Source: Bifidobacterium breve (GTDB taxonomy: Bacteria > Actinomycetota > Acidimicrobiia > Acidimicrobiales > Ilumatobacteraceae). Taken from it: DNA of 60,006 nt. The notes beneath the pieces are model-generated. The model searched no databases. It worked only from the letters and a program-made list of their open reading frames with translations, and had not been told where the DNA came from. The stretch lies in NCBI GenBank assembly GCA_945886445.1, contig CAMCZG010000005.1, positions 1 to 60,006 on the forward strand. Reading direction: 5' to 3'. A program made the position numbers and the translations under genes. Below, piece by piece: positions 45,147 to 46,792 of the stretch (positions within the stretch are counted from its first letter, which is position 1; each line of letters begins with the position of its first letter).

Positions 45147-46745
45147 TCACCCGTTGCGCTTTGCCTCTTGGCGACGTTCCGATTCAAGGCGTTCCAATTC
45201 TGGTACCTCTGTCGTCATGTGGATCATCGCTTCTGCCACTGCCTTGTGACCGGCCTGGTCGCGAATGAGTGCATGCATATCGAGGGCCACCTTGCGGTAC
45301 GCGGGGTGGCCTTGTGGGCTCGAGCGCAATTCAAGCATGTGCATCGCTTCTCGAGCATTGAACTGCATGACATAGCGAATGCGATATGCCATCGAAACGG
45401 CGTAAGCAGCCTGAGTGGGATATTCAGGAAGAAGTGCGTCGTAAAGATCTGCAGAACGGTCCATCACCTCATCGAATGCTGAAGTTTGAGACGCATCGTC
45501 AACAATATCTGGACGAACATACCCGTGATTCGGCGTCAGCGGCTGCCACTCGATGGTGAGCATGCGGTGACGCTGCATATCGCGAAATGCTCCGTAGTCA
45601 GATAACACATCAAAGCGATAGTCGGTACGTTCAAAGGCGCGTCCTGGGCGATGGCGCCTATTTGTTCTATCTCCTACGTAGGCGCGAATGAGACGAACTT
45701 TTTCGTCATGGCTCATACCTTGAACTTTTTTATAAATCTGCGACTCACTCAGCGTTAAATGGCTATAGCAAATTGCGGCTAATAGTTTGTCTTCGCCTTC
45801 AGGGTCGAAGTCACTCAAAACAACAGACTCTTCTGGCTCTATTTCTTCTGTTGCGAAAAGCTCATGTACAACGCTATGTGTATCTATTGACGTGTCTGAG
45901 AGATATTGCGACCAACGTCCGCCGCGGTCTGGCTGGTCGACTCTGCGCAGGAAGCTAGGAACTACTTTGCGCAGTTCCGTCAGCATGAGGTCGGCGTAGA
46001 GGCGAGCTTCTGGCAGAGGGTTCGCCCGCATGCGCAGCAACAGCGCTTCATACGCCTGGCCACTTCCGTATATCCCTACATTCGACAGTGCAGAGGCAGG
46101 CAACACTCCACGCACAGCGTCGAGCGCCTTAGCTCTCGTGGCTTGCCGGTAGATGAAGTCTGAATCTTTCGGACCCTGGGGAACAACTTTGCGCACATGA
46201 GTCGTCAGCGACTCTACGAGACCGCTGTAGGTATCGAACATGCGGTCCATATCGCCTACGTACCGTGTGCCAAAACGACCAGACAACACTTCCGGATCGC
46301 GATAAAAACGGTACCTACCACCCAGACGGTTGTCATAAGAGATGTAACGCGTGCTTTGCTCGAGGTAGCTCATCAAGCGACCCCATTCAAGAATTTTAGT
46401 CAACAGGTTTGATGCTTGCTCGCAAGCCAAGTGCACGCCACCTAATTGGGCAACAGAGTCATCTCCATATTCCACGAAGATTTTTTCATAAAGGCTTTCG
46501 GCACGTTCAATGCCAATAGTTGCATCGAGTGAAACATCTCCTTGGACCTCGAGTTCATTCACGAACTCATCGAGAAACAGCCTTCGCAAACTTTTTGCAC
46601 TGCGGCTGTAACGGGCGAAAAGAGCACCCTTTACCACTTCTGGGAGATTAACAAGAGCAAATACAGGCGAATCGAGATTGGTGAAATACCGTTTCAAGAT
46701 GTCAGATTCAGCGGGAGTGAACTCCTCGGGTACATAGACCGTCAC
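45147..46745 (-). CDS. Double ThyX-fold protein (FAD-dependent thymidylate synthase-like)
   Basis: A 532-aa protein with two ThyX-like halves. The first has EWGRLMSYLEQSTRY (near residue 122), matching the second part of the ThyX signature RHRxxSxNExSxRY; the second has RDMQRHRML (near residue 392), matching its first part. Both halves contain further ThyX-type blocks (RGVLPASALSNVGIYGSG; MQFNAREAMHMLELRS). Real ThyX makes dTMP from dUMP using FAD and methylenetetrahydrofolate; whether this one does is open. GTG start at 46745 with TAACAT eight bases upstream. Confidence 0.75.
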   Translation of the reverse strand: MTVYVPEEFTPAESDILKRYFTNLDSPVFALVNLPEVVKGALFARYSRSAKSLRRLFLDEFVNELEVQGDVSLDATIGIERAESLYEKIFVEYGDDSVAQLGGVHLACEQASNLLTKILEWGRLMSYLEQSTRYISYDNRLGGRYRFYRDPEVLSGRFGTRYVGDMDRMFDTYSGLVESLTTHVRKVVPQGPKDSDFIYRQATRAKALDAVRGVLPASALSNVGIYGSGQAYEALLLRMRANPLPEARLYADLMLTELRKVVPSFLRRVDQPDRGGRWSQYLSDTSIDTHSVVHELFATEEIEPEESVVLSDFDPEGEDKLLAAICYSHLTLSESQIYKKVQGMSHDEKVRLIRAYVGDRTNRRHRPGRAFERTDYRFDVLSDYGAFRDMQRHRMLTIEWQPLTPNHGYVRPDIVDDASQTSAFDEVMDRSADLYDALLPEYPTQAAYAVSMAYRIRYVMQFNAREAMHMLELRSSPQGHPAYRKVALDMHALIRDQAGHKAVAEAMIHMTTEVPELERLESERRQEAKRNG

Positions 46746-46792
46746 GACGGTCAATGTTAGAAGTCGCGGGCGTCAGGTTGCGTGATCATCTA

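Follow-up and report, generated by a model that had tools for sequence, protein, structure and literature searches.

A gene with two ThyX domains

The stretch of DNA analysed here, referred to as the window, comprises 60,006 nucleotides (contig CAMCZG010000005.1 of assembly GCA_945886445.1) and carries on its reverse strand, at positions 45147 to 46745, a gene for a protein of 532 amino acids read from a GTG at 46745. The open frame that contains the gene extends over 45147-46754 on the same strand and offers an alternative start, a TTG at 46754, three codons upstream; the alignments of homologues begin at the GTG, which is also the start chosen in the first-pass annotation. Residue numbers given here count from this GTG, and the numbering of the 535-residue frame is higher by three. 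A Pfam scan of the protein found two Thy1 (PF02511) stretches (122.6 bits against a cut-off of 24.8, E 2.3e-35) and no ThyA domain (PF00303), and a genome search located the two stretches at 45255-45803 and 45954-46508, which bears out the earlier proposal of two ThyX domains in one chain. The whole protein falls below the NCBIfam equivalog cut-off for ThyX (TIGR02170; 44.1 versus 87.9 bits), which places it outside that equivalog as a divergent double form.

The N-terminal domain corresponds to positions 45876-46745 (approximately residues 1-290) and the C-terminal domain to positions 45201-45833 (approximately residues 305-515), both on the reverse strand. The Pfam-matched neighbours of the gene are an M20 peptidase, a DSHCT helicase, TatC, a GNAT acetyltransferase, an enoyl-CoA hydratase and PrmA; since none of them is a nucleotide gene, there is no nucleotide operon at this locus. 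The gene had been described as lying alone, far from other nucleotide genes, and this holds for the neighbours identified by Pfam and carries no special meaning.

Division of the active-site residues between the two halves

In canonical ThyX, each of the four active sites is common to three subunits (PMC6514825; also PMC3498832 and PMC11940539). In the numbering of the Mycobacterium tuberculosis enzyme, subunit A supplies the RHR motif and R199, subunit B supplies S71 and R190, and subunit C supplies R87, S105, R107 and the lid tyrosine Y108, so that the RHR of a site comes from one subunit and its S-x-R-Y from another (PMC6514825). We scored the corresponding residues in the numbering of the Thermotoga maritima enzyme, namely R78, H79, R80 and R174 (subunit A), R165 (subunit B), and S88, R90 and Y91 (subunit C), and also R147, which has no subunit assignment from the cited papers. 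A and B are the subunits that bind FAD, and C binds dUMP and lies over the ring. Both halves of the protein align with T. maritima ThyX (hhalign probability of 97.4% for the N-half and 98.6% for the C-half). Compared directly with each other, they give a probability of 6%, which is not significant; each half resembles canonical ThyX far more than it resembles its partner.

The contiguous signature RHRxxSxxxxSxRY is absent, its parts being divided between the halves (WGRLMSYLEQSTRY in the N-half and QRHRMLTIEWQPL in the C-half) in this protein and in all the homologues examined. The signature part of the N-half, GRLMSYLEQSTRY (positions 46344-46382, reverse strand, residues 122-134), contains R123, E129, S131, R133 and Y134, which correspond to R80, E86, S88, R90 and Y91 of T. 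maritima, and R212 of the same half (46110-46112, reverse strand) corresponds to R147, which has no equivalent in the C-half. The C-half contains the RHR itself (45564-45572, reverse strand; residues 392-394, equivalent to R78-H79-R80), an N-A-R (45351-45359, reverse strand; residues 463-465, equivalent to N163-A164-R165) and R474 (45324-45326, reverse strand; equivalent to R174). In the canonical enzyme, R165 is the FAD contact provided by the second subunit, B, and R174 is the dUMP contact provided by the subunit that bears the FAD (PMC6514825). Taken as a whole, the chain contains the residues that contact FAD and dUMP. The first-pass annotation had reported this division, with E-x-S-x-R-Y in one half and RHR in the other, and was correct in describing the N-half as lacking the leading R-H; the third residue of the RHR is nevertheless kept there, as R123.

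The role table gives the same picture beyond this single protein. While all role residues are present in the 21 single ThyX proteins (21/21), the N-halves of the 45 double proteins always have S88, R90, Y91 and R147 and never H79 or R165, and the C-halves always have R78, H79, R80, R165 and R174 and never S88, R90, Y91 or R147. R80 is also kept in every N-half, and position 78 is W in 24 of them and R in the other 21; because about half of the N-halves retain R78, H79 and R165 are the only residues of the FAD side that all N-halves have lost. In an alignment of 13 single ThyX proteins and 116 doubles, the sole invariant columns are E375, R395, H396, R397, R468 and R477 (numbering of the 535-residue frame), of which the last five correspond to T. 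maritima R78, H79, R80, R165 and R174. On the evidence of these alignments, the split matches the roles of the canonical subunits, the C-half having kept residues of the kind supplied by subunits A and B, and the N-half those of subunit C plus R147. This agreement supports the possibility, raised in the first-pass annotation, that the two halves rebuild a composite site, since the halves have kept exactly the two sets that different canonical subunits provide.

A thymidylate synthase in which all four sites work, each half binding both FAD and dUMP through replaced residues with no strict division, could draw on the R80 present in 45/45 N-halves and the R78 present in 21/45. We consider it very unlikely, given that no N-half has H79 or R165 and that S88, R90, Y91 and R147 are missing throughout the C-halves of the close family. 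Two substitutions count against a composite thymidylate synthase site: Q75 of T. maritima is replaced by D in the C-half, and H53 is replaced by D in the N-half of the close family. The residues equivalent to H53, T55 and E58 in the C-half were left unscored, as the alignment upstream of the RHR varies between methods in that region. The aspartate at H53, a conserved active-site histidine of canonical ThyX, is residue 95 of the present protein (positions 46461-46463, in the YGDDS of the N-half), and the histidine is still present at that position in several distant doubles. For the T. maritima enzyme, structures with the H53D mutation have been solved (4kar and 4kas).

Conservation and spread of the double form

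A scan of named genomes recovered 80 loci with 72-100% identity, nearly all of them labelled as actinobacteria or Acidimicrobiia and most of them, going by the titles of their records, from lake-water metagenomes. Four MAG records titled Bifidobacterium breve (L009, L012, L018 and L064) have the Acidimicrobiia double-ThyX gene, and for this reason their titles look wrong; the protein of L018 is 100% identical to that of the window. In a search of 396 Actinomycetota genomes, the double protein was also found in 74 genomes outside the Acidimicrobiia. Among 163 distinct, full-length homologues from Actinomycetota, with identities down to 39%, R123, E129, S131, T132, R133, Y134 and R212 of the N-half are invariant, as are R392, H393, R394, R465 and R474 of the C-half. 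Because the motif residues are invariant in this set, the split pattern is not a product of chance, and the alignment identifies it as a trait of the family.

The same division appears in a further thirteen homologues, found in Bacteroidota and on phages and plasmids, with identities as low as 21-25% in some. They comprise phage Tunturi_5, jumbo phages of Vibrio, plasmids of Bacillus, Paenibacillus and Euzebya, a record of Parabacteroides distasonis and five viral contigs from IMG/VR. S-x-R is retained in the N-half of all thirteen and R-H in their C-half, and 12/13 keep the complete S-x-R-Y, the remaining one (L210) having S-T-R-A. Nearly all sampled relatives share the double, split design. 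In a quick tree of the separate halves, 27 of the 28 N-halves cluster with a support of 0.98 and most C-halves are also placed together; support on the C-half side is poor, and the C-halves of three distant doubles are placed elsewhere. This topology is consistent with a single old fusion event.

Some of these distant doubles have settings of their own. Those of Bacillus and Paenibacillus are found on non-mobilizable plasmids of about 200-230 kb (L204, L205 and L207) and have R-H-N-R in the C-half, and the Paenibacillus gene sits among DUF1257/DUF2997 and helicase genes. In the Parabacteroides distasonis record (NZ_OY725790.1, region L203:5001-10287), the double ThyX is Actinomycetota-like, with 47% identity, and a DHFR gene lies at a distance of about 3 kb; the 278-kb record showed no ThyA.

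Distribution of ThyX, ThyA and DHFR in the Acidimicrobiia

In the host genome, which is 92.7% complete, the double ThyX is the only dTMP-forming enzyme found. The first-pass annotation had proposed looking for an intact thyX or thyA in this genome, and searches with Thy1 and ThyA found neither; DHFR_1 and type II thymidine kinase also gave no match. At this level of completeness, a ThyA outside the assembled part is possible for this one genome.

The class as a whole provides a broader comparison. Thy1 is present in 177 of 197 Acidimicrobiia genomes, in its double form in 169 (including two cut by a contig end) and as a single ThyX in eight, all of which belong to one family of small genomes. 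ThyA was found in 19 of the 20 genomes without Thy1, the remaining one being 90% complete, and a ThyA match of any kind in only four of the 169 double-ThyX genomes (G096, G009, G057 and G163). G096 has a full thyA adjoining a DHFR gene, and G057 and G163 have partial matches. ThyX and ThyA are therefore almost perfectly mutually exclusive across the 197 genomes. The thyA of the fourth genome, G009, is split by about 1 kb that codes for a GIY-YIG-like protein (L213:1965-3889, G009:C39), and its 7-kb contig also carries a DHFR gene and small genes of phage-like character; a search with Rfam found no known intron in this thyA.

DHFR tracks ThyA in this set, with DHFR_1 present in 9 of the 19 ThyA genomes versus 4 of the 169 double-ThyX genomes. 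The ThyX reaction yields tetrahydrofolate and not dihydrofolate, and this distribution is what would be expected if the double protein carries out that reaction. Most bacteria without DHFR use ThyX (PMC1971073). Ten genomes of the f42 group (G071, G108, G111, G127, G133, G145, G185, G189, G191 and G195) have ThyA and gave no match for either DHFR_1 or type II thymidine kinase.

It had also been suggested that the protein could be a related enzyme of new specificity. Such an enzyme might, for example, methylate or hydroxymethylate UMP or dCMP. The altered signature and the score below the NCBIfam ThyX cut-off would fit such an enzyme, and the PDB contains a UMP/dUMP methylase with the ThyX fold, PolB (4p5a/4p5b). 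Between them, the two halves nonetheless retain every scored residue that contacts dUMP or FAD. We regard a change of specificity as highly improbable because the gene stands in for ThyA from one genome to the next, excluding it in the set of 197, and codes for the only dTMP source found in the host. With the residue division and the genomic replacement of ThyA taken together, the double ThyX is very probably the thymidylate synthase of its host, a flavin-dependent enzyme in which two specialised ThyX domains are fused and the active site is split between them.

Predicted structure

An AlphaFold2 model built from 129 sequences, including distant doubles and single ThyX proteins, reached a pLDDT of 94 and a pTM of 0.92. 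An earlier run with 21 close homologues gave a pLDDT of 69, with about 37 around the motif of the N-half, and was not used. The model predicts two similar alpha/beta units, each with a strand, a helix, a strand and long helices in that order, and the high pTM indicates that the halves hold a defined mutual position. A phmmer search with this one sequence found nothing in the PDB, and a profile was needed. Compared with solved ThyX structures, the predicted C-half gives Z scores of 14-17 (best match 3g4a, Z 16.8, rmsd 2.4 over 191 residues), the next unrelated structures having Z scores of 5 and below, and the Foldseek result agrees. These comparisons show that the modelled C-half has the ThyX fold. 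For the N-half, the ThyX fold is supported by the order of its secondary structure and by hhalign.

The fact that the clear matches to solved ThyX come from the C-half alone could suggest partial catalysis, with a C-half that works as an ordinary ThyX and an N-half that is a structural or regulatory passenger. The dUMP-binding serine and arginine and the tyrosine of the lid are absent from all C-halves and invariant in the N-halves, which makes this arrangement extremely unlikely.

Proposed assembly and relation to known enzymes

Since the halves hold complementary sets of residues, a pair of chains is expected to assemble into a pseudo-tetramer that has two composite sites. The simplest assembly of the proposed thymidylate synthase would be a dimer of two-domain chains in the 222 arrangement of ThyX. 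The two C-halves would occupy the places of subunits A and B, where FAD would be bound by the RHR of one C-half and the R165 equivalent of its partner, while the two N-halves would occupy those of C and D and offer S131, R133, Y134 and R212 to the dUMP that stacks on the FAD, for the transfer of the methyl group. The parts of the motif would meet either within one chain or between two chains. The outcome would be two complete composite sites per dimer instead of four; the other two, with FAD on the N-half and dUMP on the C-half, lack residues on the FAD side as well as on the dUMP side and are expected to be dead. We consider it likely that the protein represents an ancient and widespread branch of ThyX, which arose by duplication followed by complete subfunctionalisation, with one domain serving FAD alone and the other dUMP and the lid alone, and whose pseudo-tetramer is obligate and asymmetric, with two composite and two dead sites.

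The canonical homotetrameric enzymes (T. maritima TM0449 and those of M. tuberculosis and Helicobacter pylori) share with the double form the fold of each half, the RHR and S-x-R-Y parts, the contacts to FAD and dUMP, and the replacement of ThyA and DHFR. They differ in that their chains of about 220-260 residues play all roles and form four equal sites, whereas the double form has two non-equivalent domains with the roles split between them. RefSeq entries annotated as FAD-dependent thymidylate synthase, with about 520-570 residues (Euzebya, Parabacteroides, and Bacillus and Paenibacillus plasmids), are also of double length, and where checked they and the protein of phage Tunturi_5 have S-x-R-Y in the N-half and RHR in the C-half. 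The Vibrio, Bacillus and Paenibacillus doubles are only 21-25% identical to the protein of the window, and the thymidylate synthase of Microcystis phage LMM01 (BFVD) matches the double ThyX by fold only.

ThyX is an essential enzyme that is absent from humans, and its mechanism is still debated. The ThyX of Chlamydia trachomatis, reportedly an assayed enzyme from work by Griffin et al. in 2005, presumably has about 530 residues and may belong to the double group; if it does, one member of that group is already a demonstrated active enzyme. This enzyme makes tetrahydrofolate (PMC12584634). A duplicated ThyX of Chloroflexi, with two domains per chain as here, is mentioned as uncharacterised by Valas and Bourne in 2009 (PMC3224940), and we liken it to the present protein by its description only. 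The passage in which they mention it is silent on a division of the active site, which we describe here residue by residue in Actinomycetota and Bacteroidota as well as on phages and plasmids. Thus, the duplication has been in print since 2009; our search of mainly open literature for ThyX proteins that are fused or duplicated, in tandem or of two domains, found no published description of a division of labour between the residues of the two halves.

The debate on the ThyX mechanism stems in part from the fact that a mutation in a homotetramer alters all four sites, and all three roles, together. In the double ThyX, the FAD side is separated from the dUMP side, and therefore each could be mutated alone and the number of required sites could be counted. 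If the proposed assembly is correct, the two dead sites of the pseudo-tetramer would be free for another use. Most members of one freshwater and marine class of Actinomycetota, together with some phages, carry this form of ThyX, which lies under the cut-off of the standard model.
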